This document shows positions 22,946 through 31,236 of a stretch of DNA of 64,000 nt, in pieces. The DNA is taken from the NCBI RefSeq assembly GCF_001306135.1, contig NZ_LGKP01000006.1:62001-126000 (forward strand). The letters are read 5' to 3'. This stretch comes from Herpetosiphon geysericola (GTDB taxonomy: Bacteria > Chloroflexota > Chloroflexia > Chloroflexales > Herpetosiphonaceae). Positions within the stretch are counted from its first letter, which is position 1, and each line of letters opens with the position of its first letter. The notes below the pieces were generated by a model. That model made no database searches. It had not been told where the DNA came from and was given only the letters and a program-made list of their open reading frames with translations. Position numbers and translations under genes: made by a program.

Positions 22946-23782
22946 TTATTGTGCGTCTGATTGCGCTAAATCAACCTGTTGCGTTTGGGCCAAACCAGCC
23001 CAATCTTCACGTTTCCACCGATATGGCAATTGCACGAATGTGCCTGCTTGGCGGGCCTGCATCAAGAGATCCAAGCCATGCTTAATTAACAGTTGTTGCT
23101 GAACGACGTTGTGCGGCTCGCCTAACACATGGCCAAAGGGAAACTTGACGCTCACGCCACGGGGTACACCAAGTTGTTGGGCGATCTCAGCCAGCAGAAA
23201 AAAGCTGACCGTACTAATGCCAGCTGCTTCCAAGACCCGCGCGATCAGTCCCACGGACTGGTTGCAAATCCCTCAGGCAGGAGTCAGCACTGCTGCTGTA
23301 ATTCCAGCAGCGCGTAAATTGCGGGCAACTGTAGGCGCGGTTTGCTTGATTAAGGTGTCGATATGCTCGTCGGTAATATGGCCCATAAAGCTATAGCATG
23401 GCCCGAGGTGCTGAATTGTGCCCTGGGCTGCGAGCTGTTGAAAATGGCTGATTGGTAGAACGATATTAACATCCTGATCAGCATCACGATGATCATAATA
23501 ATCGTGGGTAATCATCAAATCATTGGGCTTCGCGCTGGCTGGAATCAAGCGAAAGCTGGGGTCGCCATGGGGATCGTGCATATCAAAAGCTGAATCGCTG
23601 CGCAGATGAACGCCGCCAGTTGTGATTAAACTAATTCGTTGTTGAGCCAGCGTTCCACGCACCGCAGCCCATGGAATATGAGCTTCAACCGTTTGAACCT
23701 GAAAGCGTTTGGCCCAACGCTGGCCAAGCCCAGGCATTACTCGATAGAACCAAGCCCCAAGTTGATTGAATGCTCGCCGCAT
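22946..23782 (-). CDS. GrdB/PrdB-like reductase selenoprotein with in-frame TGA (Sec170)
   Basis: Two open stretches in one frame, 23782-23276 and 23272-22946, are separated only by a single TGA (23273-23275). Read through as selenocysteine they give one 278-residue protein resembling the glycine/sarcosine/betaine/D-proline reductase selenoprotein B family. The centre reads VLTPA-U-GICNQSVGLIARV, with the redox motif U-x-x-C, followed by EAAGIS and later PFGHVLGEP, the same order as in GrdB (U-G-T-C, ERAGIP, PHPLGNP). The ATG at 23782 has GGAG seven bases upstream. A hairpin suited to a bacterial SECIS follows the TGA. Such enzymes reduce substrates with thioredoxin as partner; trxA is the gene just upstream. 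A disabled cysteine homologue (TGC or TGT mutated to TGA) is the alternative. Confidence 0.75.
23246..23275 (-). promoter_or_regulatory. Candidate bacterial SECIS element
   Basis: Starting 12 bases after the TGA (23273-23275), the minus strand has CAGTCC-GTG-GGACTG (23260 down to 23246), a perfect six-pair stem with a GUG loop. The apical loop is 18 bases past the TGA and has G at its first position, which fits the loose bacterial SECIS pattern. Confidence 0.55.
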
Positions 23783-23849
23783 TGCCAAACTCCAAGCATC
23801 AAATGTGCAATTGTGCTATTGGCAGTGTAGCATGGCAAAAATTGTTGGG

Positions 23850-23888
23850 CAATAAAAAACAGCACCAATCACAACGATTGGTGCTGTT
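23850..23888 (-). terminator. Rho-independent terminator of trxA
   Basis: AACAGCACCAATC (23858-23870) and GATTGGTGCTGTT (23876-23888) form a perfect 13-pair stem; on the minus strand it is followed by TTTTTTATT. It separates trxA from the downstream selenoprotein gene. Confidence 0.9.
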
Positions 23889-23910
23889 TGTGCTTACGAG
23901 CAAGCCTAAA

Positions 23911-24252
23911 TTAGGCTTCGGTTGCTGGGTTAAGAATCGCTTCGATCCGTTCTTGGTAGATCTTCTTGGGACCTGCGCCAACAATCCGATCGACCTCTTG
24001 ACCACCTTGGAAGAAGATCAAGGTAGGAATCCCTTGAACCCCGAATTTCATGGCATTGCCACTATCTTCATCGGTGTTTACCTTGGCAATTAACAATTTG
24101 CCTTGGTATTCATCGGCCAATTCTTCGAGCACAGGGGCGATTGAGCGGCAAGGTCCACACCATGGTGCCCAGAAATCAACCAAAACCGGAATATCGGAAT
24201 TAATCACTGCTGATTCAAATTCGGCATCGCTAACTGCTAATGGCTTGGCCAT
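23911..24252 (-). CDS. trxA: Thioredoxin
   Basis: 113-residue thioredoxin with the active site WAPWCGPCRS (Cys about 38 and 41) and the cis-Pro stretch GIPTLIFF. It is a cytoplasmic disulfide reductase donating to ribonucleotide reductase, peroxiredoxins and other targets. The ATG at 24252 has AGGAGG eight bases upstream; an in-frame extension to 24306 has no thioredoxin features. It lies directly upstream of the selenoprotein gene on the same strand, but a strong terminator stands between, so the link is functional at most, not necessarily transcriptional. Confidence 0.95.
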   Translation of the reverse strand: MAKPLAVSDAEFESAVINSDIPVLVDFWAPWCGPCRSIAPVLEELADEYQGKLLIAKVNTDEDSGNAMKFGVQGIPTLIFFQGGQEVDRIVGAGPKKIYQERIEAILNPATEA

Positions 24253-26093: not shown

Positions 26094-26996
26094 TTATTTA
26101 GCGACTGAATATCTCACTACATGTGTCCAATGTGGATTAGCCCAAATTTCGCCATGAGTTGGCTCAAATATGTTCAATGCCTGCTGATCATCAGCCAGAA
26201 AACCCAGTAGCCACGCAGTTAAGTAGCCGCGATAACTGCCACCATCATCTTCGATTTCTGTATGCCCAGCGCCAACTGAGATTGCCAAAAAGCGCTTATG
26301 CGCGCTTGATTGTTCTAAACTGGCTTGGTTGGCAGCAGCCGGCGAGACAATCAGATCGCGGGTTCCACTTAGAATGAGCCACGGAACGGCGATTAAACTT
26401 GGATCATAGGTGTGTGCTTCATCTGTCCAGCGCTGTTGCGGTAGCGCATTGGTGATCAAAGTTTTGATCATCTGGCCTTGTGGATAGCGATTGGAGGCAT
26501 TGATTATTCCAGTCGCGCCTTGCGATGTACCAACAGCTCCGATCTGATCAAGCTGAATTTTTTGAAATAAAGCATTAGTTGGGTCTGCATTGGCAGCAAT
26601 TAAATAATCGAGAGTTTGAATAATCGCCGCCCCATCGCCAGTATTTTCACTATAACTATCAATCACAATAAATCCCCAACTTGCCAGATGTTCAAATAAA
26701 CCAGCATATTTTTCTGGCGAAGCAATCGTCCCATTGCCCCAAATAATTACTGGATATGCACGCACTAAATCAGTTGGATAATATATAATTGCTTTTTGCT
26801 GATCGTTCAGATTGACTTGATTGTGGTTAATTGCTAAGCTTCCATGCTGCGAATAATTAAATTCCAATGGATACGCAGGATCAAAGGCATAAGTGCTGCG
26901 TTTACCAGCGGTGAATTTCAGCCCGATGATACAGAGCAAAGTTAATACGATAAAACTGCCTAAAAATCCCCAAAGTAGTTTTTTCTTGCCTGCCAT
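26094..26996 (-). CDS. Membrane-anchored alpha/beta hydrolase (cutinase/PETase-like lipase family)
   Basis: 300 residues: an uncleaved N-terminal membrane helix (about 7-28), then an alpha/beta hydrolase exposed outside. The triad is readable as Ser158 in GTSQG, Asp214 in SGTRDLIV and His245 in GAGHTEIED. The stretch PVIIWGNGT supplies the oxyanion hole, and the overall order matches dienelactone hydrolase/chlorophyllase-like enzymes (PF12740 group). Natural substrates could be esters or lipids; none is shown by the sequence. The ATG at 26996 has GAGG about nine bases upstream. It is divergent from the large secreted repeat protein. Confidence 0.78.
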   Translation of the reverse strand: MAGKKKLLWGFLGSFIVLTLLCIIGLKFTAGKRSTYAFDPAYPLEFNYSQHGSLAINHNQVNLNDQQKAIIYYPTDLVRAYPVIIWGNGTIASPEKYAGLFEHLASWGFIVIDSYSENTGDGAAIIQTLDYLIAANADPTNALFQKIQLDQIGAVGTSQGATGIINASNRYPQGQMIKTLITNALPQQRWTDEAHTYDPSLIAVPWLILSGTRDLIVSPAAANQASLEQSSAHKRFLAISVGAGHTEIEDDGGSYRGYLTAWLLGFLADDQQALNIFEPTHGEIWANPHWTHVVRYSVAK

Positions 26997-27144
26997 ATGT
27001 GCAACCTCATCCGAGCCAAATTACGCTCATTTTAGCCAATTTAGCAAATTGGTGCGTCTTGCATGCCAAAAATTAGAGGTTTGTGTATCTAGGGTTGGTT
27101 GTAGCGCTACGATTGTCAGTTTCTACATCACAAGGAAGGCTGCG

Positions 27145-30100
27145 ATGATTCCAATACGCCGTGTTATGAGTATGTTGATTGTAAGTAGTATGATGATTGG
27201 TATCGTCCCTTCAAAAGCTGTTCAATCAACCGCGTCCACTGTTCAGCCCGTCGCCCAGCATGCCACATTAAACGATATTCTGCTTGATGCCGAACATTCA
27301 ACCCTTGATTTGGAAACCGATCCATGCCCTGAGCCTGCTGCAAGCGTTGATTTGCCTGATTTGGAGCCGGCACCTAATCAGCCACAAAATGCCTCAGTCA
27401 AGCATACCAACCAGGCTTTACCACCTACAAACTACCCGTTGAACTGCGAGTTTGCTCGCAATCGGGAAATTTTGGCAACGCTTAGTCCTGAATCGTTCAG
27501 CCTTGAAAATGCCAATCAAGCCTTTACAACTGAAGCATTGGTTGTGCCGGATGCTAGCCAAATGCTGATGTTTGAATACATCGTTGGGCGCAAAACAGCT
27601 GATAGCATGACCCCACTGTATGTAGAAGTATTGAGTGGGGCAAACTTTGCGACGGTGACCAATATTAGCAATTGGCGGATTAAGGGCCAATATCGGCTTG
27701 GCTGGCAAACAGGCCGATTAAATATTCAAGCATTTCGGGGCCAAACGATTAAGATCCGCTTTATTAATGATTGGTGGTGGATTGATCAGCCATCGGCCCA
27801 AGTACGCAATCTGCGCTTAGTCCAAGAAATCCCTGATTGGGAGCTATCGACTATTGGCGAATTTGCCATTCATAATGATCATTTGATCGGCGCGTATGCG
27901 GTGATTACCGGGGCCAGCGCTAGTCTTATTTCTGCCCCCATCAATCTAAATCAGCAAGTTCAAAGCCTGACATTTCGTTACCGAACTGGGCGTTGGCAAA
28001 GCGATCGTACCGCACCGCTTTTTGTTGAGATTCTAAGTGGTACAACATTTGCAACTGTCACTAATATTGATCAGTGGACGCTGCAAGGCCGATTAACTGA
28101 TGGTTGGCACGAAGCAGTGCTGGATGTTCAGGCATTTCGTGGTCAAACGATTAAAATCAAAATTATCAACGATTGGTGGCCACACGATCCTCAAGTTACG
28201 GCGATTGATCGTTTCACATTTAATAGATCCGTACCTGGTTGGGATATTTCAAATGCAAGTTTTGTGCGAACTAATACAGCAGCACTCCCATCAGGAACCC
28301 CATTAAACGTTGATTTTGAACAAGATTTTATCGCCTTTGATGTGATTGAAAACCCTGATTTTGAACAAGATCAACTCGTGCTATCTGAACTACAACAGCC
28401 GCTGATCAATCTTGAAGGCCTGCAAACGAGGGCAAGTAGTGTTGATTTTGGCGTGCCATCTGCAGCAACCAGTATTCATTTTGAATATATGGTCGGCGAT
28501 GTTGATGATGTTAATAATACTCGTCGGCTACTGGTAACGCTATTGAGCGGCGAAAACTTTGAAATTCTTGAATTTCCTCAAGGTCATACCTTTGTAAGTT
28601 CGAGCCAAGCAGGCTGGCAACAAGGTCGAATTGATTTGGTTGGCTATCGTGGGAAAACCATCAAGCTCCAGTTTATTAATGATGCGTATGGGCGCCCAAT
28701 CAGCCAGATTAAAGCGTTCAAACTTGTTCAAGATGTACCTGCTTGGCAAGTGCAGAATCATCAATTTCTTAGCATTGATCACAATCCAACCCAAGGTAAT
28801 TATGGATATCTGTATGGCCATGCAACGCAGCTAACCTCGCTAGATTTTACTGTTCCGCTGACTGCTCAACAGGTGCGCTTCGATTATCAAGCGGGCTTTA
28901 GCGACAATCCTGCTGCACGCCAGCGAGTTGCAATCAGCATCTTGAGCGGCAATACCTTTGAAATTGTCCATGCGCTTCCAGCCGATTCTTTGCTTGGTTC
29001 AACCGATCAAGGCTGGCAAACTGTAGCGCTTGATTTGCAGCGCTTCCAAGACCAAACAATTAAGCTTCAATTCACCTTAGAAGCCCATAATACTGCCTAT
29101 TTGCGGTTAGATAATCTTCAAGTAGGCCACGTTCTAGCTGGCTGGTCGAGCAGCGAGCATACGCCAATTATGCTTGAAACCCGTGATTCGAATCGCCAAG
29201 TTGTGCGATTTGCTGGCAGTAACGCGCGTTTTACCAGCGATGCCTGGACTGTGCTATCCGATACTGAAGCTCTCCAATTTAACTATAAAACTCAACACCC
29301 TGATGCGTGGTGGCGTTCGGTGATTGAGGTTTATGTGTTAAGTGGCGACGGCTTTGAAATCGTTACGCCGATTGATGCAGGCTTAGTCTATGGTTATGGC
29401 AACGACCCAAATAATGGTTGGCACGAAGCCCACTTAGGCTTGGCTCAATTTCAAGGCCAAACGATTAAGCTCCAATTTAAGCATCAAGGTCATGGCTATT
29501 CGACTTCTTGGCTGGATAATCTTCAGTTAATTGCTGGCGAAACGCGGGCAAAACAAGCAGCCCAAGATGCTCCTGATCATGCTTTTATCGAAATCTCACG
29601 CGCTGGTCAGTATGTTACGAGTTCTAGTTTTGAACTCGCCAGCGATAGTCAATTCTTGCGTTTTGTCTATCAAGTTGGCAATAAAGATCATGGGAATGCG
29701 CAACATCATTTGGCAGTTGAAGTACTTTCAGGGGCTAATTTTACAACCATTAGCAGAATCGATCAGTATCAACTGTATCATTCGCTTAACGATGGCTGGA
29801 AGATCGCACAATTGCCAATTCAGCAATTCCAAAATCAAACGATTAAAATTCGCTTTATCGCCCCTGGTTGGGTTTCTGCCCCAATCGTGCGGATTGATAA
29901 GGTTGCCTTGCTCAATCCACGAGCAAGCATTACCGGCCCAATCAATGTTCCTGGCGTGACATATTTGAATGTACCACTTGCTGAATTAGCCGGAATTACT
30001 ACCCCAACGACAATGACAATAAATTCCTTAGTTATTTATGATGAGTATATGGAAGTGGCAGGTCACGTGCATTATAGCAATAAGACTTATCCATTTGCCT

Positions 30101-31236
30101 TGACTGGTGATTTGTATCACTCTAGTCTAGGAACACCTGGTGATATTGTGGCTGATCTTCAAGACACCACTGGAACCTTTGAAGCCCTTTATTTTGCTCT
30201 ACGTCAACAACCATTTGGGCCTCAAGCCAATCCTTCAATCGTTGATCAAAATCTCTCGTTATATCTCCAACGCCATGGAACACGAGAGGCTACATTAATT
30301 GATCTAGGCTTAGATGATTCACTGAGTGCATTGTTAAGCCCAATATTCGAGCTGCCAGCGCTTATTAGTGCTAATTATGCTGACGATTACTGGTTTGGCA
30401 AGCTTCTTGAACCTCAATCTACTTTTGAAGCATTAGGTGACCCTGACGAAAAGAAGTGGACATGGAAGCGCACCACGATTGGTAAAGATTGCACATTATT
30501 ACAACGGCTTGATTTTGGTGTCGTAGTTTCAGTTCCAGATGGAAATATTGGTCAAAATAGCGGCAAATTTGGAAGTCAACTGGAAGTATTGGGATCAATC
30601 TCTAATGGTTATGTAACACCTGGACAATCGTGGCCAGCAGATTCATGTGATATCTATGATGCTGATAATGCTGGCGTTACTTTAGGCTCTAGAGATGATC
30701 CCGTGACTGTTAAAATTGTGTCCTCAGGTAACAATTTAACGGGCAATGATGCCCAAGGTGATTATTTGAGTGATGCAACCTTTGGGGGCGATGCTACTCG
30801 ATTTAAAGGTAATCAACTCTGGTTTGATCAATTTATTGGCGATTTGATCAAATCGGTTGATATGGTTTCAAAACTATTTTCAATCCCGATTACTGTTGGT
30901 GATGTATCACAATTGTTCCCAGAAAGTACACCAGATATGGGAAATAAACCTTCCTTATCAAATAGTATGATATTAAATGACTGGGATGATAATCCTAATA
31001 CAAAAATAAAAGTCTTACGTGTACCATTTCAGCAATCTGTACTCGTTAAACAACGAGATTATTTTATGGTTTCTGCTACCATTGCATGTAAGAAACAAAA
31101 TAGTAATCGAGATATGTTGGTGAAAATATATTGGGATATTCCACTTTATGATAATGTTTCCAGAAAAGAATTGAATGTTAATTTATATAATAGAAGCTTT
31201 TTGGTCGATTATAAGAGTGGTCCTTGTAATAATTAG
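27145..31236 (+). CDS. Large secreted protein with six copies of an unrecognised beta-rich module
   Basis: 1363 residues. An N-terminal hydrophobic segment (about 5-25) acts as signal peptide. Six modules of about 95 conserved residues follow, at nucleotides 27564-27843, 27958-28245, 28468-28752, 28867-29155, 29266-29538 and 29650-29928, with a spacing near 400 bases. Each has an L/F-x-F-x-Y strand, E-x-LSG-x-x-F, a GW and the motif QTIKI/L-x-F-I. They look like jelly-roll carbohydrate- or cell-surface-binding domains (inference). The C-terminal 430 residues are unrelated, A/T-rich in codons and carry several cysteines. The ATG 27145 has AAGGAAGG upstream; the longer frame from 26893 has no signal peptide and overlaps the divergent promoter region. 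Confidence 0.8.
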   Translation: MIPIRRVMSMLIVSSMMIGIVPSKAVQSTASTVQPVAQHATLNDILLDAEHSTLDLETDPCPEPAASVDLPDLEPAPNQPQNASVKHTNQALPPTNYPLNCEFARNREILATLSPESFSLENANQAFTTEALVVPDASQMLMFEYIVGRKTADSMTPLYVEVLSGANFATVTNISNWRIKGQYRLGWQTGRLNIQAFRGQTIKIRFINDWWWIDQPSAQVRNLRLVQEIPDWELSTIGEFAIHNDHLIGAYAVITGASASLISAPINLNQQVQSLTFRYRTGRWQSDRTAPLFVEILSGTTFATVTNIDQWTLQGRLTDGWHEAVLDVQAFRGQTIKIKIINDWWPHDPQVTAIDRFTFNRSVPGWDISNASFVRTNTAALPSGTPLNVDFEQDFIAFDVIENPDFEQDQLVLSELQQPLINLEGLQTRASSVDFGVPSAATSIHFEYMVGDVDDVNNTRRLLVTLLSGENFEILEFPQGHTFVSSSQAGWQQGRIDLVGYRGKTIKLQFINDAYGRPISQIKAFKLVQDVPAWQVQNHQFLSIDHNPTQGNYGYLYGHATQLTSLDFTVPLTAQQVRFDYQAGFSDNPAARQRVAISILSGNTFEIVHALPADSLLGSTDQGWQTVALDLQRFQDQTIKLQFTLEAHNTAYLRLDNLQVGHVLAGWSSSEHTPIMLETRDSNRQVVRFAGSNARFTSDAWTVLSDTEALQFNYKTQHPDAWWRSVIEVYVLSGDGFEIVTPIDAGLVYGYGNDPNNGWHEAHLGLAQFQGQTIKLQFKHQGHGYSTSWLDNLQLIAGETRAKQAAQDAPDHAFIEISRAGQYVTSSSFELASDSQFLRFVYQVGNKDHGNAQHHLAVEVLSGANFTTISRIDQYQLYHSLNDGWKIAQLPIQQFQNQTIKIRFIAPGWVSAPIVRIDKVALLNPRASITGPINVPGVTYLNVPLAELAGITTPTTMTINSLVIYDEYMEVAGHVHYSNKTYPFALTGDLYHSSLGTPGDIVADLQDTTGTFEALYFALRQQPFGPQANPSIVDQNLSLYLQRHGTREATLIDLGLDDSLSALLSPIFELPALISANYADDYWFGKLLEPQSTFEALGDPDEKKWTWKRTTIGKDCTLLQRLDFGVVVSVPDGNIGQNSGKFGSQLEVLGSISNGYVTPGQSWPADSCDIYDADNAGVTLGSRDDPVTVKIVSSGNNLTGNDAQGDYLSDATFGGDATRFKGNQLWFDQFIGDLIKSVDMVSKLFSIPITVGDVSQLFPESTPDMGNKPSLSNSMILNDWDDNPNTKIKVLRVPFQQSVLVKQRDYFMVSATIACKKQNSNRDMLVKIYWDIPLYDNVSRKELNVNLYNRSFLVDYKSGPCNN

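Follow-up and report, generated by a model that had tools for sequence, protein, structure and literature searches.

Our results indicate that what appear as two adjacent open reading frames in Herpetosiphon geysericola are a single selenoprotein gene. Its product probably acts as a single-subunit, thiol-dependent selenoreductase in the PrdB branch of the GrdB/PrdB superfamily, with a substrate that is probably other than D-proline; we put the probability of this reading at roughly 0.8. The gene lies on the minus strand of the window, the 64,000-nucleotide stretch of DNA that was analysed. The original prediction had given its coordinates exactly (22946-23782) and left the strand unstated. It had read the two pieces as one selenoprotein interrupted by TGA, which standard gene calling would split. 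Standard ORF calling does yield two pieces, and the reading frame holds a single TGA and no other break; conservation of this TGA, a SECIS hairpin and purifying selection join the pieces into one gene. The locus comprises the following features:

22946..23782 (-), PrdB-like selenoprotein gene of 278 residues, an ATG...TAA frame with a full-length match to TIGR04483
23780-23782 (-), ATG start codon of the selenoprotein gene
22946-22948 (-), TAA stop codon of the selenoprotein gene
23273-23275 (-), in-frame UGA for Sec170, first residue of U-G-I-C, with TGA at 81 of 82 homologous sites
23244..23262 (-), SECIS hairpin with an 8-pair stem and a GUG loop, from covariation, a covariance model and a synonymous freeze
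23790-23793 (-), GGAG, candidate ribosome-binding site 7 nt before the ATG, read from the sequence
23857..23889 (-), 15-pair intrinsic terminator between the thioredoxin and selenoprotein genes
23911..24252 (-), thioredoxin gene directly upstream of the selenoprotein gene, from TIGR01068 (121 bits) and synteny

The protein belongs to the GrdB/PrdB superfamily by homology of its Sec domain, its (U/C)xxC motif and its shared core residues. Judged by its sequence, it is of the PrdB type and not GrdB. The PrdB model TIGR04483 matches it with 163.7 bits over model positions 19-236 of 238, that is, over the full length. In contrast, GrdB-type models match only through their own C-terminal third, the best covering model positions 265-410 of 435. 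Hence, of the proposed likeness to GrdB and PrdB, the PrdB half stands and the GrdB half holds only for the C-terminal part. A glycine or betaine reductase was rejected as a candidate, since the length is wrong (278 versus about 430 residues) and GrdE is missing. The proposal that U-x-x-C occupies the catalytic Sec position of the family is borne out by the PrdB of a Terrisporobacter plasmid, which shares 35% identity with the Herpetosiphon protein over 220 residues and aligns Sec on Sec. A Cys version of the family (CPVC) was seen on a Roseomonas haemaphysalidis plasmid, next to selO (L188 5938-6846 (+)).

Similarity to clostridial PrdB goes together with clear differences. In a tree, the window protein grouped within a clade of 79 rows (SH-aLRT 98) that is separate both from clostridial PrdB and from a mixed Sec/Cys group of other Chloroflexota; the tree was made by a quick method, has several long branches, and its root was set by the choice of outgroup. 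The Terrisporobacter PrdB has in common with the Herpetosiphon protein the Sec, the Cys at +3, H64, D79, R83, H98, Y101, D109, N111, R187, E190 and R213. We compared the positions kept in at least 95% of the 79 clade members with three clostridial PrdBs. At 27 of these positions all three have the same residue, including H64, D79, R83, H98, Y101, D109, N111, C178, R187, E190 and R213. Another 22 are not wholly shared with them, including the pocket-motif residues Y100, H103, H140, N179 and H223, where the clostridial proteins have G, N, G, H and A. These residues are numbered in P0001, the translation starting five codons upstream of the ATG, so that P0001 residue 175 is Sec170 of the gene. 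The glycine-rich PrdB motifs SHGGYDN and FMGGGG are replaced.

D-proline and glycine reductases have a second subunit, with a pyruvoyl group, that is cleaved from PrdA or GrdE. Neither PF09338 nor TIGR04480, the models for PrdA/GrdE, gave a match in any of 60 genomes (the own genome and 59 relatives), whereas a real PrdA scored 80 and 976 bits with these two models. Among 400 Chloroflexota, PrdB-like matches occurred in 99 and PF09338 in only nine, all nine of which have PrdB/GrdB matches. A PrdA homologue lies just upstream of prdB in all three clostridial records versus none of 80 clade loci (the best 80 of 169, some on short contigs). One such PrdA homologue, on the megaplasmid of Peptoclostridium acidaminophilum (L186 4702-5970 (+)), lies where the PLSDB gene table is empty. 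GrdA gave no match in 31 genomes, in a search whose positive controls gave no match either. Because PrdA/GrdE is absent, the protein cannot be filed as a glycine, betaine or D-proline reductase, and naming it a D-proline or glycine reductase is not supported. An unlinked partner unlike PrdA/GrdE may exist.

How such a protein could work alone can be outlined. As sequence comparison shows, UGA codon 170 is recoded by the genome's own SelA, SelB, SelC and SelD via the hairpin directly after it. The Sec selenolate would then attack an activated substrate, and the Cys at +3 would resolve the Sec intermediate as a selenenyl-sulfide. A general dithiol donor, for which thioredoxin is the natural candidate, would re-reduce the selenenyl-sulfide. 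The substrate would be one that needs no pyruvoyl activation, such as a disulfide, a peroxide, or a carbon with an electrophilic leaving group. D-proline is probably not the substrate, because the pyruvoyl subunit is absent and the pocket-motif residues differ from those of clostridial PrdB; without the pyruvoyl group, an amino acid is not activated as in PrdAB, so that the substrate is probably a different one.

The gene neighbourhood bears on one way of filling in this scheme, namely that the protein serves thiol-redox protection and acts on disulfides, peroxides or metal-stress products rather than on a carbon-heteroatom bond. This would be consistent with the UxxC redox motif and with the thioredoxin gene next door, which adjoins the selenoprotein gene in all six Herpetosiphon genomes. 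Thioredoxin is a possible electron donor on the basis of this adjacency within one genus, since the arrangement was seen only in Herpetosiphon. A thioredoxin-selenoprotein operon was considered and ruled out by the 15-pair terminator between the two genes, because of which the selenoprotein gene is probably transcribed alone. Protection would also fit part of the Deltaproteobacteria, in which the gene is preceded by a YHS-domain P-type ATPase, by a small cytochrome c or by a rhodanese. However, these neighbours depend on lineage and are not common to Chloroflexota, and a fold search, uninformative overall, gave no thioredoxin-like match. We therefore regard a protective role as a tentative option, somewhat against the odds.

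No conserved operon partner was found across the best 80 of 169 loci, where neighbours vary by lineage. Besides the YHS P-type ATPase, cytochrome c and rhodanese, lineage-specific neighbours named by eye from sequence include a geranylgeranyl-reductase-like flavoprotein, TetR, IspG and a cyclase-like protein. The YHS-domain P-type ATPase, often together with the small cytochrome c, precedes the gene in one group of Deltaproteobacteria (L103, L105, L107, L118, L131, L136, L143 and others). Among Desulfuromonadales, the upstream neighbour is a rhodanese whose N-terminus is signal-like (L104, L110, L112, L130, L132, L140).

Alternatively, the protein might be the catalytic subunit of an ordinary D-proline reductase (PrdAB) in an aerobe, its PrdA having been missed or replaced. 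Full-length similarity to PrdB, 35% identity and the same UGxC speak for this. Yet, the 163.7 bits fall below the TIGR04483 equivalog cut-off of 300, which two clostridial PrdBs pass with 310.2 and 424.7 bits. Moreover, models shown to work find neither PrdA nor GrdE in the own or related genomes, and both SHGGYDN and FMGGGG are replaced. An ordinary D-proline reductase is hence unlikely.

That the UGA is read as selenocysteine is indicated first by its conservation. The same TGA is present in five other Herpetosiphon genomes, with protein identities of 85-93%; the nearest named matches are H. giganteus, H. llansteffanensis and H. aurantiacus DSM 785. A further 19 full-length homologues in the order, at 43-50% identity, all have TGA at the Sec codon, which thus holds for every full-length homologue (25 genomes of the order) down to 43% identity. 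A scan of 84,980 species genomes gave 169 loci, of which the best 80, from named genomes, were analysed. They come from Chloroflexota, Deltaproteobacteria, Nitrospirota, Tectomicrobia, Rokubacteria, Acidobacteriota and others. These 80 loci hold 82 homologous sites, of which 81 have TGA, one has GGA and none has a Cys codon at the Sec position; the second conserved residue of UxxC is Cys without exception. The absence of Cys at the Sec position among the best 80 of 169 is unlikely to reflect search bias, because one of the two scan patterns has Cys at that position. The question whether relatives have TGA, TGC or TGT at this codon is thereby answered in favour of TGA. As expected of a bacterial selenoprotein gene, the in-frame UGA is kept in orthologues, while more distant homologues have Cys or Sec there.

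Two side observations concern this codon. The GGA occurs in a deltaproteobacterial clade member (L122 8109-8786 (+)) whose SECIS hairpin is intact; it is either a recent change or an assembly error. Two genomes from a single genus of the same order have PrdB-like paralogues with two in-frame TGAs (L037 1495-2250 (+) and L041 1501-2304 (-)); these would read U-P-I-U, so that both residues of UxxC would be selenocysteine.

If the UGA were a true stop, a functional product of 169 residues would result, and some truncated product is indeed expected because UGA recoding is usually partial. However, C178, E190, R213, G222 and G226, all invariant or nearly so, lie in the 108 residues downstream of it. 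Across the six Herpetosiphon genomes, the part before the UGA has a dN/dS of 0.056-0.164 and the part after it one of 0.035-0.079, which points to purifying selection on the region after the TGA and agrees with the claim that the downstream part stays conserved. These values on both sides of the UGA argue against a pseudogene as well as against a dispensable tail, and a functional short product is very improbable. That a premature stop or sequencing error split a former Cys gene is hardly credible, even though standard ORF calling returns two pieces, since the same TGA recurs in six Herpetosiphon genomes, among them the complete one of H. aurantiacus, as well as in distant lineages, is followed by a SECIS element and has purifying selection on either side.

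The SECIS hairpin begins 13 nt past the first base of the UGA and has the consensus AUCAGUCC-GUG-GGACUGAU. In 40 distinct sequences, 96.3% of the cells of its stem are paired, and three pairs show double-sided changes (UA to CG, GC to AU, UA to AU); as a control, the pairing was lost when the partner strand was slid. In the window hairpin, the second pair is a C-A mismatch and the remaining stem is intact. Comparisons of Herpetosiphon with other families showed a synonymous freeze, with codons +3 to +10 identical in 82% of same-residue comparisons versus 37% elsewhere in the gene. The covariance model of the hairpin (R1) scored 60.8 bits in the window, where the runner-up reached 8.1; this was the only significant match in the window and the only one reported in the genome. 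Across 60 genomes the model matched in 27, once each in 25 and twice each in G012 and G043, and every match lay at the PrdB-like gene or its paralogue. Taken by itself, the window hairpin has an unremarkable folding energy (z -0.63); because such single-sequence folding is uninformative here, the RNA evidence is comparative.

The genome also has what is needed to read the codon. The original prediction had called for a search for selA, selB, selC and selD, and all four were found. Profile scores were 535 bits for selA, 320 bits for selB and 376 bits for selD, and a tRNA-Sec (selC) with a TCA anticodon is present (L010 9513-9609 (+)). The selD gene (L046 1480-1640 (+)) has its own in-frame TGA in a CAGU motif and encodes a Sec-containing selenophosphate synthetase. 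The tRNA-Sec gene was seen directly upstream of tuf, encoding EF-Tu (L010 9823-11079 (+)), and a ribosomal protein cluster. None of the nine relatives that are at least 90% complete and lack selA has the selenoprotein gene, while in two incomplete genomes (G008, G018) the gene is present, whole or as a fragment, and selA gave no match.

PrdB-like selenoproteins as a kind are already known, with those from oxic sea water on record since 2005. PrdB ranked third in abundance among the selenoprotein families of the Sargasso Sea (PMC1088965), and its 235 Sec forms in GOS place it among the commonest selenoprotein families (PMC2398784). Like the Herpetosiphon protein, these are PrdB-type with UxxC, mostly contain Sec, and probably belong to the same superfamily; they abound in surface sea water and owe their name to homology only, and the tree made here does not include them. 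Reviews list the family as D-proline reductase (PMC13188914, PMC9312934). Clostridial PrdB (TIGR04483) is likewise homologous over its full length, with Sec at the same place, U-G-x-C and a shared polar core. The Herpetosiphon protein differs from it in that it has no PrdA partner, scores under the equivalog cut-off, carries additional N-terminal helices (P0001 residues 4-31), has altered motif residues and falls in a separate clade. With component B of glycine, sarcosine and betaine reductase (GrdB/GrdF/GrdH; PF07355, TIGR01918), the C-terminal part and the Sec motif align, whereas about 200 N-terminal residues and GrdE are missing. The GrdB-like FarB, proposed for monofluoroacetate reduction in Synergistota (PMC10838667), offers a parallel in its proposed Sec attack on an activated carbon. 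In contrast to our protein, FarB is paired with a GrdE-like protein and works in strict anaerobes.

What is new is a clade that lacks PrdA, is almost Sec-only and has pocket residues of its own. We found no assigned function for this clade and no report naming a PrdB-like selenoprotein of Herpetosiphon in the literature covered, which was incomplete. The original prediction had foreseen a new role for the family outside amino-acid-fermenting clostridia. The host is indeed an aerobic, gliding member of the Chloroflexota whose genome has the full Sec machinery, and an aerobic heterotrophic lifestyle has been described for H. aurantiacus (PMC3368417). The family, however, had already been recorded outside clostridia (PMC1088965, PMC2398784); a new role is plausible. 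The chemistry probably needs selenium, because the clade is near-exclusively Sec (81 of 82 sites in the best 80 of 169 loci) while Cys also occurs in a related group of the same phylum.

We lean towards the view that this multi-phylum clade of PrdA-less proteins represents a distinct selenoenzyme, a reductase of one subunit that acts on a new class of substrate. It would be used by aerobic and phototrophic Chloroflexota as well as by many Deltaproteobacteria and Nitrospirota, and the names D-proline reductase and glycine reductase would be wrong for it. At present, family names assign these reductases to organisms without the remaining parts of the enzyme, and the real gene is split by standard ORF calling. 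Herpetosiphon, as a cultured aerobe, offers a direct route to the function of orphan PrdB, a question that extends to the PrdB-like selenoproteins abundant in the surface ocean, which have carried a homology-based name since 2005.

An AlphaFold model of the protein (pLDDT 93, pTM 0.91) has a Rossmann-like fold with U-G-I-C at a helix start, Sec lying between a strand and the helix N-terminus. A profile search of solved structures gave nothing significant. Fold searches with the model gave nothing informative (best Foldseek E-value 0.05; best VIA Z 8.2, at 4.3 A over 160 aligned residues), which does not show a new fold. The N-terminal helix has a positive amphipathic moment, suggesting possible membrane contact. 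Elsewhere in the window (26893-31236 (+)), an ORF of 1447 residues with internal repeats ('...LSGxxF...GxTIKxxF...' units) looks like a large secreted protein.
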